In this document: one piece after another, positions 2,758 through 40,364 of the stretch
Layout: every line of letters begins with the position of its first letter
Numbering within the stretch: the stretch's first letter is position 1
Source: Clostridia bacterium
GTDB lineage: Bacteria; Bacillota; Clostridia; Oscillospirales; Acutalibacteraceae
Direction: 5' to 3'
NCBI GenBank assembly: GCA_017621885.1
Contig: JAGASD010000032.1
Span: 42,528-106,527 of the forward strand
DNA length: 64,000 nt
The notes under the pieces: generated by a model
Database searches by the model: none
What the model was told of the DNA's origin: nothing
What the model saw: the letters and a program-made list of their open reading frames with translations, nothing else
Translations under genes and position numbers: made by a program

Positions 2758-2777
2758 AAATGTATGGGGGTGATGCC

Positions 2778-3680
2778 TTGACTGAAATTTATGCAGATGT
2801 TCTTGTTTCCTTGAATATTTTGTTTACATACATATTTCTTGTTGCAACCAGGGTTATTTGTAAAATTCCCACTAATAAGTGGGGCGTTGCAATTTCGTCT
2901 TTTTTAGGCGGGATGTCATCGCTGATAATATTTGTGAACGAATTAAATATAATTCTATCTGCAGGATACAGAATTATGGTTGCAATTGTTCTTACGGGCA
3001 TTGCGTTTTTACCCCGCAGCATTAAAAGCTTTATAAAGGTGATATGTGCTTTTTTCGGGGTAAGCTTTCTTTTTGGCGGAATAATGTACGGTATTGAAAT
3101 TGCATTTAATCCGTCTAACATATTTTTTGTAAACGGAACGGTTTATTTTGATATGAGCATAACATATCTTGTAGTAAGTGTTCTTGTTGTATACGGTGTG
3201 TTTCTTGGCTGCAATTATTTGCTTCAAAGGAATCTTTCAAATAATGAAATTTATGAAATTGAAATATATTTCCGCAGCACAAGCGCAGCTTTAAGGGGAA
3301 TTATTGATACCGGTAATGCTTTGAAAGACGGGGTTATGGGAAGACCTGTTATTGTTGCTGAGCTAAAATCACTTTTACCGTTGTTTACTGATGAAGAAAT
3401 CCGATATCTGAAGGCTGAGGCTCTTTTAAATGTTCCGCAAAGTCTTGAAACAAGAATTCATTTTATTCCTTGTAAAACGGTTAGCGGCAGGAAGCTGTTA
3501 CCTGCAATAATACCTCGGAAGGTTGAGTTAGTGAATGGGAAAAATGCTGCAAAAACAGATTTTGTTGCTGTTGCAATAATGAATGAAAAAGTATCGTCAG
3601 GGGAATATAACGCACTTTTGTATAAAGAGATAGCAGAGTTAAGTTGGAAGGAGAATAACAATGCCAAACACATTTTTTGA
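2778..3680 (+). CDS. spoIIGA: Sporulation sigma-E factor processing peptidase SpoIIGA
   Basis: Membrane aspartic protease that cleaves the pro-sequence of pro-SigE in the mother cell after asymmetric division. The N-terminal half is a run of about five hydrophobic helices; the C-terminal domain carries the aspartic protease motif [10 protein letters not shown] (DTG active-site triad) followed by GRPVIVAE, as in SpoIIGA. I place the start at the TTG at 2778 rather than the upstream ATG at 2760: the TTG follows GGGGGTGA at the right distance, the TATAAT at 2752-2757 would put the transcript start downstream of 2760, and the resulting N-terminus ([12 protein letters not shown]) matches the family. 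That gives 300 residues. It overlaps sigE by 20 nt, implying coupled translation. Confidence 0.93.
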
Positions 3681-4383
3681 AAAAATCAGAAGCATAAGAA
3701 TAAAAATAAAGCTGCTTTTAGATAATGGGATTTATTACATAAACAGCCCTCAGGTTTTACCGCCGCCTCTTTCGCGAAAGGACGAGGATGCCTTAATTGA
3801 AAAATTGCGTGAGGGTGATACAACCGCACGGGATAAGCTTGTGGAGCATAATTTACGGCTTGTGGTATATATTGCAAAAAAGTTTGAAAACTCGGGAGTT
3901 AATATTGAGGATTTGATTTCTATCGGTACAATAGGTCTTATAAAAGCCGTGAATACCTTTAAGGCAGATAAAAATATAAAGCTTGCCACGTATGCTTCAA
4001 GATGCATCGAGAATGAAATATTGATGTATTTACGCAAAATTAACCAGCAAAGGCTTGATATATCTTTAGATGAACCGTTGAATGTGGATTGGGACGGTAA
4101 TGAGCTTCTGCTTTCGGATGTGCTTGGCAGTGACGGTCTTGAAATTAACGACAACGTTGAGCAAGAAGACGAAAAAAGAATACTGCATATGTGTATGGAG
4201 GGCTTATCACCGCGCGAAAGACTGATAATGAGTATGCGTTTCGGAATGGACGGTAAAAGAGAGCATACGCAAAAAGAAGTAGCAGATATTCTGGGCATAT
4301 CACAAAGTTATATTTCTCGTCTTGAAAAGCGTATAATTCTTAAATTAAAAAGGGATATTGAAAGACAAACAATTGAAAAATAA
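3661..4383 (+). CDS. sigE: RNA polymerase sporulation sigma factor SigE
   Basis: Mother-cell sigma factor, 240 residues, made as an inactive precursor. The N-terminal pro-region (about 1-30, hydrophobic and basic) precedes the conserved PPPLS segment. Region 2 ([53 protein letters not shown]) and region 4 with its helix-turn-helix ([20 protein letters not shown]) match SigE closely. The gene directly follows and overlaps spoIIGA, whose product activates it. In Bacillus sigG follows next; here an unrelated esterase does. Likely targets within this window are ylbJ and yqfCD. Confidence 0.96.
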
Positions 4384-5432: not shown

Positions 5433-8400
5433 TTATCCTGCCAGAGCCTTGTTTACGGCATTCTGGTAATCTCTTGAATCAAGCTTGTTGTTATTATTCA
5501 TATCCGCAGCCGAAAAGGTGCTTCCGCTTAAAGTGGTGTGTCCGTTGGCTGCTTTTTCTATTTCTATGCAGTCAAGTACATCGCACACGCTGTCGCCATT
5601 CAAATCGCCGTATACAACAACGTTAAAAACAGAATCAGGTTTACCGTTAAGATAAACGATTACAGATGAACCCGTACCATAGAATTGTTCATCTCCGTTT
5701 GAGTAGGAGGGAACGGCGTAATGGGTGGAATATTCGCTGAATTTTAATATATCGTTTATATCCTGAATCTGCATTTCAGAGGTTTTAATTGAAAGCTTCA
5801 GTAAGTCTACGGCGGTGTTAGAAAGCAAGGAGGAAACTACAGGGATGAACGTACATACATCGCTTGTTATAGTCATAAGCGGGTTGCTTCCGTCCTGACA
5901 GATAACAATACAGTAATAATAGTCATAAATTTTAGTGTGGCTTGCAGGTGTGAATTCACTTGTGGTTGCATTCTTAATGAATTTACCGCCCGTGTTACTG
6001 TTTTTGGTGTTTCCGTACCATTGATAAATTCTGTTAAGTCCCATAACATCAAATGAAATAGTATCCTTTATGCTTTCGCAATATTGCGGAACATTTCTGA
6101 ATATTGCCGTGTCGGTTGTGATTTCAATAAATGTCTGATTGTTTTCGTTAGCCCAGGTTTCGCCGAAGCTTCCCTTTGAGCCGTATATTATAACGTTATC
6201 AAAATCAGTATCTTCGATGCTTGTGACGGATAATGGTAAAGCTGTGGGGATATTTTCGGGTAAATCCTTAATTGAAATTGCATTGTCAAGAATAACCTTT
6301 TCTGCAGTAAAATCAGTTTCAAATGCGCCTGCTTCAACGGTTACATCGCCTTTTATCCAAAGTTCATTAAGGGAGGAGCAACTCTCAAAAACATTTTTGC
6401 CGAGAGTCTCGAGGGCAGGAAGATTAACCTTTTGTAGGTTCTTACAGCCTTTGAATGCGTTTTCAAAAAGCTTTGACATATATTGGAAATTTGCAGTTTC
6501 GAGCTTTGTGCAGTTTTCAAAACCGCTTATGCCTACCTCATTCAAGGTGGGTGCAGTGAAAATTTTAAGTGCGGTGCAGTTATAAAAGCTTTTGGGGTTA
6601 ACGTATTTCAGAAGGGGGAAGGTCGCAGTTTCAAGCTTTGTGCAACCGTTAAAGGCACTTTCGCCTACGGCTGTGGCTTTATCAGAGGATATTTCCTTTA
6701 ATTCGGTACAACCGCTGAAAGCGTATTGCTGAACGCTTGAAGCATTGGTAATAATAGCTTCTTCAAGCTCTTTACAGTTTTCAAAAGCGTATTCTTTTAT
6801 TGAGTTAACATTTGGTATTTCAACGTATCTTATAGGTGTTTCTTTGAAAGCATGAGCACCAAGTACTGTAAGCTTATCGGAAACGAAGCTTTGAATACCC
6901 GAAGAATAGAAGGCGTACATGTCTGTTACACCTACGTTTGAGGTATCTAAATAAGTTAAATCTAAAGCGTAGGCAAAAGCATAATAACCAATGTTATAAA
7001 GATTACTACCCGTAAATTCTTTAAGGTTGTGGCATTTATAAAATGCGTAAGATCCTACCGTTTTTACACCTCTTGCCGTTATATATTCAAGATTTGAGCA
7101 AAGGTAAAATGCTTTGTTGCCGATTTCTGTTATTGTGTCGGGAAGTGTAATACTTTCAAGATACGTATATCCGTTGAAAACCGATTCATATATACCCGTG
7201 GGTGTGATGCCTTTTATGGTATCGGGGATAATAATTTCTGTATTATCCGATGAGTCTTCACCTAAATAATCTGTTATGACACCGGCGCTGTTTATGATAT
7301 ATTTTTCTTCCTCATTAAGAAATAGTCTTTTATATGTTCCTACAGTTTCCTCACTTTTGGTTTTACCCTTTTTTTGTGCATAGGCGGTTATAACCGTATC
7401 GTAAGTGATTTTTATCGGCTCTTCATAGTCGTGTACTGCCTGAGAATCATTTTTCATATAAAATATAAAAGCATCAGGGTCGGAACAAGTTATTTCAAGA
7501 TAAAACTCAGTATCAAATTCACCTGATTCTACGCTCAGAACGGGTGTGGGAGTTTGCTGTATTTCTTCGTCAAGTATATATTCTATAAACATACCGTTAC
7601 GCCATTCGTATTGGTCGATTCTGTCAACAATTTTATTGTACGTAATGGTAGGAGTGTCAAGAATAAGGTATGTTACTGCAGCGGCAACATAAGGTGATGC
7701 CTGAGAAGTACCGGATGCAATAGCCCAGGTATTATTTAAATATGAGCTTGTAACCTGATAACCAATGGCGGCAGTTTCACACATTGAGCCGTAGTTACTG
7801 AAATACATTCTCATATTCATTGGTGCGTTGTACGCCATAACGGTGATAACATTGTCACAGCAGGCGGGGGTGAAGGGGGTAGCATCCATATTGTAACCGT
7901 CGTTACCTGCGGCAGCAACGAGGATTATACCTGCTTTGTGTGCCTTTGCAAGGGCTTCATCCATCGCGGGATTTTCACCTCTGCGGCCGAAACTCATATT
8001 TATAACGTTAACACCGTCTGCAATAGCGGCTTCAACACCTAAAACTGTCTGTGCGTCGGTGCCCTTACCCTCGTTGTTAAGAACCTTATAGGGCTTGATT
8101 GTAATGTTTTCAAGTGTGTTTGCAGCAATTATACCTGCAACGTGTGTTCCGTGACCGTTGTCATCATAGCAGGATGAACCGTTAACCGCATCAAATCCGT
8201 TGGGGTCAACTCTTTCCTTTAAAAGGTCGTGGTCATAAGCAATACCCGTGTCAATAACAGCAACGGTCAATTCTCTTTTGTATACCACATTATTATCCTC
8301 GAGCTTTTTGCGTAGTGCCGTAAAGCCAAGGGTGTCAGCATCGTCTATCATAGGCTGGGGGAGAGCGACGGATGAGGATGCTGTTTCGAGAATTTCAAAA

Positions 8401-8840
8401 TCCGCAACCCTGTTGATTTCATCCTCCTGAGCATATTCAACGTTTTTGCAGCTTTCGTAGTATTCAAGGGCTTCTTCTGCAGACCTGCCGTTATCAAATT
8501 GCAGAATGTGTAAATCGTTGTAGCCTTCAATATATGCAACCGCATCACGGGTGTCGATATCCCCCTCAGCTTTTACGATAAGGCGGTCTGTTCCGTAGGT
8601 TAAAATTTCTTCTTTTTCATCCTCTGTTTCGTCCTTGCAAACAGAAAATGAGTTGATTGAACTAACCTCATTCTCATCAGGGACGGAGCTGTAATCGTAT
8701 TTTTCAATCATATCATTCAACCGGTTGGAAAAGGTCTCAAGAGAAACCTCATTTTCCGAAGTGTCTGTTGCTTGCGCATAAAAAGGCAAACACGAAATTA
8801 ACAGCACACCGCAAAGGATTAAACTGATAAATTTTTTCAT
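5433..8840 (-). CDS. Secreted subtilisin-like protease with LRR_5 repeats and C-terminal dockerin
   Basis: A 1135-residue exported protein. Start set at 8840, where AGGAGG lies 8 nt upstream and a signal peptide begins (MKKFISLILCGVLLISC); a further upstream Met has no ribosome site. Order: signal peptide (1-25); propeptide-like region to about 185; peptidase S8 domain with Asp197 (VIDTGIA), His230 (NGHGTHVAG), oxyanion Asn313 (AAGNDG) and Ser379 (SGTSQASP); a chitobiase/CHB_HEX_C-like segment (about 430-510); about a dozen BspA-type leucine-rich repeats (about 550-850); an uncharacterised region; and a dockerin type I with two calcium loops (GDLNGDSVCDV and ADMNNNNKLDS) at the extreme C-terminus. 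All catalytic residues are present. A dockerin predicts docking to a cohesin protein, which is not in this window. Role (host or food protein attack, or adhesion) is inference. Confidence 0.9.
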   Translation of the reverse strand: MKKFISLILCGVLLISCLPFYAQATDTSENEVSLETFSNRLNDMIEKYDYSSVPDENEVSSINSFSVCKDETEDEKEEILTYGTDRLIVKAEGDIDTRDAVAYIEGYNDLHILQFDNGRSAEEALEYYESCKNVEYAQEDEINRVADFEILETASSSVALPQPMIDDADTLGFTALRKKLEDNNVVYKRELTVAVIDTGIAYDHDLLKERVDPNGFDAVNGSSCYDDNGHGTHVAGIIAANTLENITIKPYKVLNNEGKGTDAQTVLGVEAAIADGVNVINMSFGRRGENPAMDEALAKAHKAGIILVAAAGNDGYNMDATPFTPACCDNVITVMAYNAPMNMRMYFSNYGSMCETAAIGYQVTSSYLNNTWAIASGTSQASPYVAAAVTYLILDTPTITYNKIVDRIDQYEWRNGMFIEYILDEEIQQTPTPVLSVESGEFDTEFYLEITCSDPDAFIFYMKNDSQAVHDYEEPIKITYDTVITAYAQKKGKTKSEETVGTYKRLFLNEEEKYIINSAGVITDYLGEDSSDNTEIIIPDTIKGITPTGIYESVFNGYTYLESITLPDTITEIGNKAFYLCSNLEYITARGVKTVGSYAFYKCHNLKEFTGSNLYNIGYYAFAYALDLTYLDTSNVGVTDMYAFYSSGIQSFVSDKLTVLGAHAFKETPIRYVEIPNVNSIKEYAFENCKELEEAIITNASSVQQYAFSGCTELKEISSDKATAVGESAFNGCTKLETATFPLLKYVNPKSFYNCTALKIFTAPTLNEVGISGFENCTKLETANFQYMSKLFENAFKGCKNLQKVNLPALETLGKNVFESCSSLNELWIKGDVTVEAGAFETDFTAEKVILDNAISIKDLPENIPTALPLSVTSIEDTDFDNVIIYGSKGSFGETWANENNQTFIEITTDTAIFRNVPQYCESIKDTISFDVMGLNRIYQWYGNTKNSNTGGKFIKNATTSEFTPASHTKIYDYYYCIVICQDGSNPLMTITSDVCTFIPVVSSLLSNTAVDLLKLSIKTSEMQIQDINDILKFSEYSTHYAVPSYSNGDEQFYGTGSSVIVYLNGKPDSVFNVVVYGDLNGDSVCDVLDCIEIEKAANGHTTLSGSTFSAADMNNNNKLDSRDYQNAVNKALAG

Positions 8841-8845
8841 AAAAC

Positions 8846-8917
8846 AACCTCCTGTTTTTACTCTTTGCAAAGCTTAATAAACTTGCTTTCTGTTATATAG
8901 TGTAAAAACAGGAGGTT
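8846..8917 (-). repeat. Perfect 16-bp inverted repeat enclosing the protease ribosome site
   Basis: AACCTCCTGTTTTTAC (8846-8861) and its exact complement GTAAAAACAGGAGGTT (8902-8917) are separated by 40 nt. On the protease mRNA the start-proximal arm contains the AGGAGG Shine-Dalgarno sequence and the distal arm a CCTCCT anti-Shine-Dalgarno, so a transcript begun upstream of 8917 would bury the ribosome site in a 16-bp stem. A TATATA inside the loop leaves open that a promoter lies between the arms. Confidence 0.85.
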
Positions 8918-38265: not shown

Positions 38266-39654
38266 ATGGGTCGACTCAGATATTTTATTGCCCTCTGGGC
38301 AGCAAAGCTTGTGTTTGTGTTACTCAGATTACTTAAACGTAATGCAACAATGTATCCCGGATATATTGCACTCAAAATTTGTCCCGATTATCTTGCAAGA
38401 ACAAGAAAATCACCTAACGTGCTCTGTGTTACCGGTACAAACGGTAAAACCACCACTACAAATATGGTTGCAGATATTCTCTCTCAAAGCGGGATGAAGG
38501 TTGTTTCCAACAGATACGGTTCTAATATCAATACAGGTGTTGCTACTGCACTCACGCACAGTGTGAGTGTTTTCGGTAAGCCTAAAATTGATGCACTTGT
38601 GCTTGAGGTGGACGAGCGTTTTTCAAGACTTATTTTGCCGTTTATTAAGCCGGATTATCTTGTTGTTACCAATCTTTTCAGGGATTCAATCAAGCGTAAC
38701 GCTCACCCTGAATACATTTTCAGCATTCTTGATACTTATGTGCCTGAATCAACCAAGCTTATTCTTAATGCAGATTGCCTTCAGTCATCGCAGCTTTTAA
38801 AGAATAATCAGCGTGTTTATTTCGGCATTGATAAGCTTGATACGGACGTAACCGAGTGCGTGAATCTTATTAATGATTTTTCGATTTGTCCTGTTTGTGA
38901 CGAAAAGCTTAAATTCAATTACCTTCGTTACCATCACATCGGTAATGCATATTGCCCCAAATGCGGCTTTAAATCCTATGAGGCAAATTACCGTCTTACA
39001 AATATTGATTATGACAACAAGACAATAACTGTTGAGCAGAATGGTGCAGCATCTGTCTATCCTATGATTAACAGAGCTCTTTATAATATTTATAACGAGC
39101 TTGCCGCAATCAGCCTTATGTCTGAATTTGGTGTTGACCTTGAAAAGGTCAAAGAGTATATGCGTAAAATAAGCGTTACACAGACCCGTTACAAAGAGGA
39201 TAAAGCAGGTAAAACCGAAATTGTACGCACAATGGCTAAAGGTCAGAACTCTGTTTCATGCTCAAGAACACTCGATTTCGTGGGTCACGAAAACGGTGCA
39301 AGAACTGTTTTCATTATGATTGATGACTTGTTTGAACGCCGCGACTCCTCAGAGTTTATTGGTTGGATTTACGATGCAGACTTTGAGTTTCTTAACACAC
39401 CCGACGTTAAGCAGATTGTTCTTGCAGGTCCCCGTTGCTTTGACTATAAGTTAAGACTTCTGATAGCCGGGATCCCTGAAGAGCGAATCCTCTGCGAAGA
39501 GGATGAATTTAAGGCTGTTGATATTATGGACAAGGATATAGACAAGCTTTACCTTCTTCACGATACCTCAACATATGACCTTGCTTGTAAGGTTGAAGAA
39601 AAAATTAAAACTGTATTTACAGAGGCATATAAATCAAAGGGCGGTGAACAATAA
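38266..39654 (+). CDS. MurT-like Mur ligase domain protein
   Basis: 462 residues. It resembles MurT, the ATP-dependent ligase subunit that with GatD amidates glutamate of lipid II. Walker loop VTGTNGKTTTT at about 56-66, EVDER, NLFRDSIKRN, and a four-Cys zinc knuckle (CPVCDEK ... CPKCG, about 206-243) are present. The C-terminal DUF1727 part is divergent: VFIMIDDLFERRDSSEFIGW where MurT usually has IND, and DTSTYDLACKVEEK at the end in place of the usual NYTAL-like motif. The N-terminus has a hydrophobic stretch. It overlaps the gatD-like gene by one base. Confidence 0.82.
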   Translation: MGRLRYFIALWAAKLVFVLLRLLKRNATMYPGYIALKICPDYLARTRKSPNVLCVTGTNGKTTTTNMVADILSQSGMKVVSNRYGSNINTGVATALTHSVSVFGKPKIDALVLEVDERFSRLILPFIKPDYLVVTNLFRDSIKRNAHPEYIFSILDTYVPESTKLILNADCLQSSQLLKNNQRVYFGIDKLDTDVTECVNLINDFSICPVCDEKLKFNYLRYHHIGNAYCPKCGFKSYEANYRLTNIDYDNKTITVEQNGAASVYPMINRALYNIYNELAAISLMSEFGVDLEKVKEYMRKISVTQTRYKEDKAGKTEIVRTMAKGQNSVSCSRTLDFVGHENGARTVFIMIDDLFERRDSSEFIGWIYDADFEFLNTPDVKQIVLAGPRCFDYKLRLLIAGIPEERILCEEDEFKAVDIMDKDIDKLYLLHDTSTYDLACKVEEKIKTVFTEAYKSKGGEQ

Positions 39655-40364
39655 TGAAGATAGAAGTACTTTATCCTGAAATTTGTTGTTTGTTCGGCGA
39701 CAAAGCTAATATGCGCTATTTTGAAATGTGCCTTCCCGATGCAGAGTTTATTAAAACTCCCGTAAGTGAAATGCCTCATTTTCTTACCGAGGATGTTGAT
39801 ATGGTTTATTTCGGTTCGTGCAGTGAATCTAACCAGGAACGTATCCTCAGCAGATTGAAAGGATACGAAAGCCGTATAAATGAGCTTATTGAAAAAGGTG
39901 TCATTTTCCTTATGACGGGTAATACCTTTGAGATAATGGGAAAATATATAGAAAAGCCCGACGGAGAAAAAATTGACGGACTGGGTATTTTTGATTTCTA
40001 TGCCAAGAGAACAATACCTAAGCGTTATAATTCACTTTTCCTCGGTAAATTCGGTGAGATGGAAATTGTCGGTTACACAAGCCGCTTTTCTCATTGTTAT
40101 GATATTGATGAAAATGACAGCTTTCTTACAGTAACAAAAGGTTACGGCTCAACTGTTGAAGCCAGAACTGAGGGTATAAGAAGAAATAACCTTTTCGGTA
40201 CGTATCTTTTAGGACCCTTCCTTATTCAGAATCCTATGTTCACAGCGTTTCTTATGAAAAAGCTTGGTTGTAAAGATCCTGAGCTTGCATTCAAAAATGA
40301 TATTGTCAAGGCTTACGAGGTAAGGCTCGCTCAATTTAAAACAGATATAGTTTTCGCAGAATAA
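39654..40364 (+). CDS. GatD-like glutamine amidotransferase homologue lacking catalytic Cys and His
   Basis: 236 residues, co-encoded with the MurT-like gene. The overall GatD pattern is clear (DGLGIFDFYAKR, RRNNLFGTYLLGPFLIQNP, KGYGS). In S. aureus GatD the nucleophile Cys94 lies in ICGGYQFLG and the catalytic His189 in TYLHGP. Here the matching places read MTGNTFEIMG (Thr88) and TYLLGP (Leu186), and the GFENHGGRT segment has become GYTSRFSHCYD. The glutaminase should therefore be dead, leaving a structural partner or a different reaction. Residue equivalence is by eye from remembered family sequence. Confidence 0.78.
   Translation: MKIEVLYPEICCLFGDKANMRYFEMCLPDAEFIKTPVSEMPHFLTEDVDMVYFGSCSESNQERILSRLKGYESRINELIEKGVIFLMTGNTFEIMGKYIEKPDGEKIDGLGIFDFYAKRTIPKRYNSLFLGKFGEMEIVGYTSRFSHCYDIDENDSFLTVTKGYGSTVEARTEGIRRNNLFGTYLLGPFLIQNPMFTAFLMKKLGCKDPELAFKNDIVKAYEVRLAQFKTDIVFAE

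Follow-up and report, generated by a model that had tools for sequence, protein, structure and literature searches.

A MurT/GatD-like gene pair of Clostridia in which GatD lacks both glutaminase residues and MurT carries new conserved residues

The lipid II isoglutaminyl synthase MurT/GatD, solved from Staphylococcus aureus (6gs2/7q8e) and Streptococcus pneumoniae (6fqb), is encoded by two co-directional genes and joins a zinc-ribbon Mur ligase to a partner of the class I glutamine amidotransferase (GATase) type. Amidation of D-glutamate (D-Glu) influences cross-linking and host sensing of wall fragments, according to published abstracts. In the accessible text of the structural studies, S. 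aureus MurT Asp349 completes the GatD catalytic triad (PMC6113224), and GatD Asp32 of S. pneumoniae is the other proposed third triad residue (PMC6085368). The latter source also places MurT loop 135-143 and a gate near Asp355/Asp361 between GatD and the MurT active site as a proposed ammonia guide, reports that replacing N85, D112 or E113 of S. pneumoniae MurT abolishes activity and that changing Asp139 or Glu143 to Ala has only minor effects, and names GatD Gly34 as the conserved contact of MurT Trp360. More distant relatives include MurC to MurF, which ligate amino acids and act on uridine diphosphate-linked precursors bound by an N-terminal domain, and the archaeal pseudomurein ligases and MurT-like proteins, which in the available part of their description have no glutaminase partner (PMC11915815). 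Here we describe a MurT/GatD-like pair of a Clostridia bacterium (Oscillospirales; Acutalibacteraceae; assembly GCA_017621885.1), encoded on a stretch of 64,000 nucleotides (contig JAGASD010000032.1, positions 42,528 to 106,527; hereafter the window), in which GatD lacks both the catalytic Cys and the catalytic His.

Both window genes are full-length open frames, and they share one base, an overlap that the first-pass annotation of this DNA had reported and that suggests coupled translation of murT and gatD (Table 1). The MurT-like protein exceeds the Pfam cut-offs for Mur_ligase_M (24 bits) and MurT_C (25 bits) alike, and the partner that adjoins it passes that for GATase_3 (27 bits). Among proteins of solved structure, the two are closest to MurT and GatD of S. 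aureus and S. pneumoniae. Neither protein reaches its NCBIfam equivalog cut-offs (181.3 and 172.4 against 800 for MurT; 69.0 against 400 and 72.9 against 450 for GatD). The two proteins are homologues of MurT and GatD, and the pair probably acts as a MurT-type ligase; it differs from the archaeal ligases in keeping its GatD partner. With the glutaminase residues missing and the equivalog cut-offs failed, the name lipid II isoglutaminyl synthase (glutamine-hydrolysing) should be avoided. Among the literature titles and abstract openings listed, none described a GatD without its catalytic residues, and none concerned ligases for D-Glu alpha-carboxyl substituents.

Residue states were read for 155 GatD rows from 151 genomes or records, and a GatD without both Cys and His is called both-lost here. 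There were 45 intact rows, 106 both-lost rows, three rows without Cys only and one without His only; these totals are not frequencies, since the newly met genomes taken up (39 of 54 from the order, 29 of 130 from the class and 11 of 77 from the phylum) were partly chosen by score. In the window GatD, S. aureus Cys94 aligns with Gly89 and His189 with Leu186, phmmer and a 29-row profile agreeing on both. The first-pass annotation had inferred the loss of both residues and had placed them at Thr88 and Leu186; the double loss and Leu186 hold, and the Cys position was one residue off, Thr88 being aligned with the preceding Ile. Its loss of the ENHGG segment is likewise borne out (GFENHGGRT has become GYTSRFSHC), and the other glutamine-site motif of the described synthase, CGGYQ, is replaced as well. 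A Cys and a His were also sought elsewhere in the glutaminase site, and neither residue reaches half of the 106 both-lost rows in any column; a His two residues before the lost catalytic His is found in 30 of them and is absent from the window protein. What has appeared instead is a conserved pattern at the former nucleophile elbow, where 79 of the 84 both-lost rows with the TGN motif also carry Glu or Asp at position 93. The GatD contacts G187-P188 and N193-P194 are kept by alignment.

The ligase partner is conserved on one side of its active site and altered on the other. Residues K61, N87, D116, E117 and R308, which serve adenosine triphosphate (ATP), Mg and the acceptor carboxyl, are present in the window protein and are near-invariant and the same in intact and both-lost rows; N87, D116 and E117, the counterparts of S. 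pneumoniae N85, D112 and E113, are kept in 101, 103 and 101 of 104 both-lost rows. By alignment, the phosphate-binding loop (P-loop), Asn87, Asp116-Glu117, the hinge Arg308 and the interface aromatic Tyr369 are common to the window protein and the described synthase, and the contacts Tyr369 and Asp370 remain. The kept P-loop and zinc knuckle noted at first pass were found again, as GTNGKT and all four zinc-ribbon Cys. New basic and polar residues are present next to the catalytic acids and within the interface loop: Asn145 and His147 occur together in 89 of 104 both-lost rows and in none of the 45 intact rows, and Arg118 joins them in 80 of the 104. Conversely, Asp143 is present in 45/45 intact against 1/104 both-lost rows, and Glu147 in 44/45 against 1/104. 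By our reading, His147 does not coincide in position with the histidine that Mur ligases have in a loop (PMC6085368). Compared with the described synthase, the interface loop, the K-N-P loop and the gate are all changed. An altered C-terminal domain had been noted at first pass; the K-N-P loop insertion and the rewritten gate agree with that, and the changes are local, MurT_C still scoring 83.5 against a cut-off of 25. Loss of the Asp349 counterpart is not claimed, because it falls in the gate with its three-residue insertion and depends on the alignment (Phe364 in the 155-row alignment, Glu363 in one of eight rows, Asp361 in pairwise phmmer). The Asp349 position is Asp in 45/45 intact rows, and among both-lost rows Glu in 39, Asp in 21, Asn in 18 and others in the remainder.

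Table 1. Features of the MurT/GatD-like pair, in coordinates of the window
Feature	Position	Strand	Support
MurT-like Mur ligase, 462 residues	38266..39654	+	Mur_ligase_M 50.9 bits, MurT_C 83.5 bits (Pfam); S. aureus MurT, expectation value (E) 2.4e-48
P-loop GTNGKT, MurT residues 57-62, kept	38434..38451	+	Gly60 and Lys61 in 103/104 both-lost rows; the remaining, truncated row gapped
Asp116-Glu117 kept (S. pneumoniae Asp112-Glu113), then clade-new Arg118	38611..38619	+	Arg118 in 91/104 both-lost, 0/45 intact rows
MurT interface loop R139-E149, RDSIKRNAHPE for intact RDQLDRYGE..; Asn145 and His147 new, Asp143 lost	38680..38712	+	alignment
Zinc ribbon Cys208/211/230/233, kept	38887..38964	+	Cys in 104/104 both-lost rows at all four columns
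K-N loop, MurT residues 325-333, two-residue insertion relative to the intact K-N-P loop	39238..39264	+	alignment
Gate segment, MurT residues 353-372, rewritten, three-residue insertion; W367, Y369 and D370 kept	39322..39381	+	S. aureus Asp349 counterpart ambiguous
Overlap of murT stop and gatD start, one base, TAATG	39652..39656	+	murT TAA and gatD ATG
GatD-like class I glutaminase homologue without catalytic Cys/His, 236 residues	39654..40364	+	GATase_3 57.9 bits; S. aureus GatD E 2.4e-18, profile 4.7e-31
GatD Asp16, counterpart of S. pneumoniae Asp32, kept	39699..39701	+	alignment; Asp in 64, Glu in 40 of 106 both-lost rows
Former nucleophile elbow T88-G89-N90-T-F-E93, Gly89 for Cys94	39915..39932	+	TGN in 84/106 both-lost, 0/45 intact rows
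GYTSRFSHC replacing GFENHGGRT	40071..40097	+	alignment
Leu186 replacing catalytic His189	40209..40211	+	Ile, Leu or Thr in 96/106 both-lost; His in 45/45 intact rows

The both-lost pairs that could be placed on a tree form one clade. After the trait segments had been cut out, 149 concatenated pairs gave a tree in which all 101 both-lost pairs lie on one side of one branch, with a support of 98 in the Shimodaira-Hasegawa-like approximate likelihood-ratio test (SH-aLRT), and the single-gene trees (146 rows, three long branches also dropped) repeat the split at 92 for MurT and 96 for GatD, the two partners being co-inherited. The concatenated tree excludes a partial row (L033), the near-copies L021, L055 and L061, three loci with no partner on their stretch (L016, L099, L208) and L031, where the sole MurT-like match on the stretch is a MurC-like frame. 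The clade covers 18 family codes of the class. Intact orthologues were sought inside it and none of its rows has intact residues, so the window pair is not merely a mutated copy. Its sister group consists of two intact rows (L205, L207) and one that has lost Cys (L241); Asn145 is already present there and His147 is not. Within the clade, A-type rows resemble the window pair (GatD VGFKSQF-like), and B-type rows form the other large branch (GatD VGFINKC-like, MurT VTGSNGKTSTVE). Four genomes of three genera hold two diverged both-lost pairs, one of each type in G107, G084 and G192 and two A-type branches in G038. Within the genus, comparison with the closest relative (L004 against L005) gives a low ratio of non-synonymous to synonymous substitution (dN/dS), 0.03 in murT and 0.06 in gatD; dS is close to saturation. 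The loss of Cys and His is more than chance, given that it is clade-wide and accompanied by low dN/dS.

A few rows depart from this picture. L068, L069 and L206 form a highly divergent both-lost branch on a long stem, with a MurT loop lacking His at 147. In L241, L242 and L246 the GatD Cys alone is lost (to Gly, Ser and Gly), MurT is otherwise of the intact type and its Glu147 is changed in each; Glu147 is thus present in 0/3 such rows against 44/45 intact ones (Fisher p 2e-4), a joint change that fits a tie between Glu147 and glutaminase function. In L233 the GatD Cys is kept and Asp replaces His. These four rows are likely independent losses of the glutaminase.

In the family, GatD is matched in 70 of 200 genomes and MurT_C in the same 70. 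All but three of these (G073, G091 and G168) could be classified: 52 carry only the both-lost form, 15 only the intact form and none both kinds. In overlapping genome sets, MurT is matched in 68/295 genomes of the order, 134/245 of the class and 80/249 of the phylum. The both-lost kind includes a class match of middling score (L235), so the kinds cannot be told apart by score alone and the unsampled matches could be either. Of the 11 phylum rows that lie outside the class, every one has the His and 10 have the Cys. A scan of named genomes with a single P-loop pattern gave at least 80 loci, seven of which were used (L094-L100), and is not a measure of distribution; the named both-lost relatives are metagenome-assembled genomes of uncultured Clostridia, an Oscillospiraceae bacterium and Mageeibacillus sp. 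UBA1046.

We propose, with a probability of roughly 0.4, that the window pair is a glutamine-independent descendant of MurT/GatD that favours an amine other than ammonia. From the sequences we infer the ligase activity, the acceptor, the amine and the role of the GatD pocket as follows. MurT would bind ATP and phosphorylate a carboxyl group; the likeliest one is that at the alpha position of D-Glu, within a wall precursor linked to lipid. The precursor is probably of the meso-diaminopimelate type, as the MurE of this genome carries a DNPR motif, which we take to be the marker of that type. GatD would no longer split glutamine and would be retained as a partner for the folding or closing of MurT, its old glutamine site having turned into a new conserved pocket; its role would be that of a scaffold or of a ligand-binding subunit, and the complex itself is likely kept. 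The incoming amine, held by MurT Arg118, Asn145 and His147, would then attack the acyl phosphate. That the acceptor and ATP residues hardly vary speaks against an acceptor group of another type, and since the nucleophile side has changed, the candidates are ammonia on the one hand and amino acids or further amines on the other. A small amine, in the first place an amino acid, appears slightly favoured, and free ammonia follows closely. A bolder form of this proposal, which we regard as rather doubtful, is that the pseudo-glutaminase binds the amine and hands it over, so that, in an ancient clade of Clostridia, MurT would attach a residue, and not an amide group, to the alpha-carboxyl of D-Glu. 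The interpretation offered at first pass is supported in part: a glutaminase-dead GatD kept with an active-looking ligase is retained here, in what proves to be a co-inherited pair and with Gly89 in place of Thr88, and the three options that it named (free ammonia, another nucleophile, another wall precursor) are candidates of differing weight.

A ligase that uses only free cytoplasmic ammonia and makes D-iso-glutamine, with GatD purely structural, is a serious candidate, although we place it below even odds. In S. aureus the same Cys-to-Gly change (GatD-C94G; Munch et al.) abolishes the use of glutamine and leaves amidation from ammonia at pH 8.5, GatD being still required and MurT alone inactive (PMC3266927, in the text available), so ammonia has to be considered seriously, and there is a direct precedent for a dead GatD that serves as a scaffold. 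The rows that have lost Cys singly beside an otherwise intact-type MurT, with Glu147 changed in all three, speak for the same chemistry. The accessible text of that study also states, however, that the S. aureus complex does not use ammonia at pH 7.5, and glutaminase loss alone would leave the new conserved residues on both partners unexplained. Nor would it account for two diverged pairs in one genome, which are odd if both merely add ammonia and which we count in favour of another amine. The new TGN motif, with its acid at position 93 in 79 of 106 both-lost rows, could also belong to a regulatory complex, for instance one in which a ligand sensed in the GatD pocket gates MurT, or to a ligase with another acceptor; related ligases do serve other walls, and the model of the pseudomurein ligase pMurC matches the window MurT with an E of 4e-21. 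Such a function seems unlikely, as the acceptor-side and Mg-binding residues are unchanged and no widely shared neighbour indicates another pathway. Missing catalytic residues could finally mean that the genes are decaying or misassembled, which we consider highly improbable: decay would not build new motifs such as TGN and the conserved R118/N145/H147, the frames are full-length, dN/dS to the nearest relative is low and the form makes up one clade over 18 family codes.

Several points weigh against a glutamine-independent ligase with a non-ammonia amine, over and above the ammonia use of the S. aureus C94G complex. The new MurT and GatD residues have been placed by alignment, and the trees are short searches without bootstraps on rows of which many are uneven in composition. 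Asp or Glu still stands at the Asp349 position in 60 of 104 both-lost rows. The complex may not be unchanged, since the counterpart of the GatD contact Gly34 is Ala18 in the window and Gly in only 48/106 both-lost against 45/45 intact rows. The MurT gate segment (DNAAD) has been likened, in the accessible part of PMC6113224, to the amino-acid pocket of MurE as a possible holder of the stem lysine and not of the amine, so a changed gate may mean another stem and not another nucleophile. Finally, one observation that we count in favour of the proposal has limits of its own: a PF14397 ATP-grasp gene directly adjoins the both-lost pair in six loci of two families, f1 and f27 (L017, L019, L021, L024, L215 and L217), up- or downstream and, judged from stop-to-stop frames, co-directional in all except L017, where it lies on the opposite strand. 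This link is partial (6/106 both-lost loci, with unequal flanks), the window's genome has no PF14397 match, and co-occurrence over the family is weak, at 29/52 both-lost genomes against 56/148 others (Fisher p 0.034, uncorrected for kinship).

For annotation, the label lipid II isoglutaminyl synthase would give the wrong chemistry for these genes, and 52 of the 67 classified pair-bearing genomes of the family carry the both-lost form alone. The walls of these Clostridia may carry an uncharted substituent or modification. In the available part of a review of gut peptidoglycan (PMC11382707), none of Ruminococcus, Ruminiclostridium, Ethanoligenens and Mageeibacillus is given a type. If the hand-over of an amine by GatD were true, the pair would represent a missing enzyme class for walls that are substituted on the alpha-carboxyl or bridged through D-Glu, and the two diverged pairs of some genomes would stand for two substituents.

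A second, intact murT/gatD pair was sought in the same genome, and no second MurT or GatD was found; the genome is 94% complete, so this absence is not absolute. It has one MurT_C place, two GATase_3 places and six Mur_ligase_M proteins. The other GATase_3 place was considered as a second GatD and rejected, since its sequence and his-operon neighbours mark it as what we take to be HisH. Among the Mur_ligase_M proteins, one is the window MurT, three are presumably MurE, MurC and MurD, and two (L254, L259) were not identified.

Upstream of murT and five bases from it lies mscL (PF01741; 37799-38260, forward strand), and mscL, murT and gatD may form one operon. Further upstream, the opposite strand carries a type III pantothenate kinase and a component of an energy-coupling factor transporter; downstream, the same strand encodes a protein that matches no Pfam family and a homoserine dehydrogenase. 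Beside the pair, mscL and the pantothenate kinase are shared by the three genus members alone, and a homoserine dehydrogenase with a permease-like gene is also near it in L088 (G123). In the surroundings of 20 further group-A loci and the window, no neighbour besides murT and gatD is shared by more than four loci, so the murT-gatD pair is the conserved unit. When all 155 loci are compared, their flanks being unequal, the larger clusters comprise what we take to be RecD-like (13) and ComF-like (7) genes, and the PF14397 genes (6), the last being named by their Pfam match. Frames that we read as alanine racemase, FtsW/RodA and flippase occur in three or four of the 155 loci each. Clusters 2 and 8 of this comparison look like spurious frames and were ignored. 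FemAB was considered as a linked wall enzyme and set aside (21/52 both-lost genomes against 39/148 others, p 0.08; none in the window's genome).

Elsewhere in the window, the forward strand at 2760-4383 carries what we read as spoIIGA followed by sigE, the next gene being presumably an esterase and not sigG. On the reverse strand at 5433-8870, a protein of 1145 residues appears by eye to be a secreted protease of the subtilisin type that has leucine-rich repeats and ends in a dockerin-like region.
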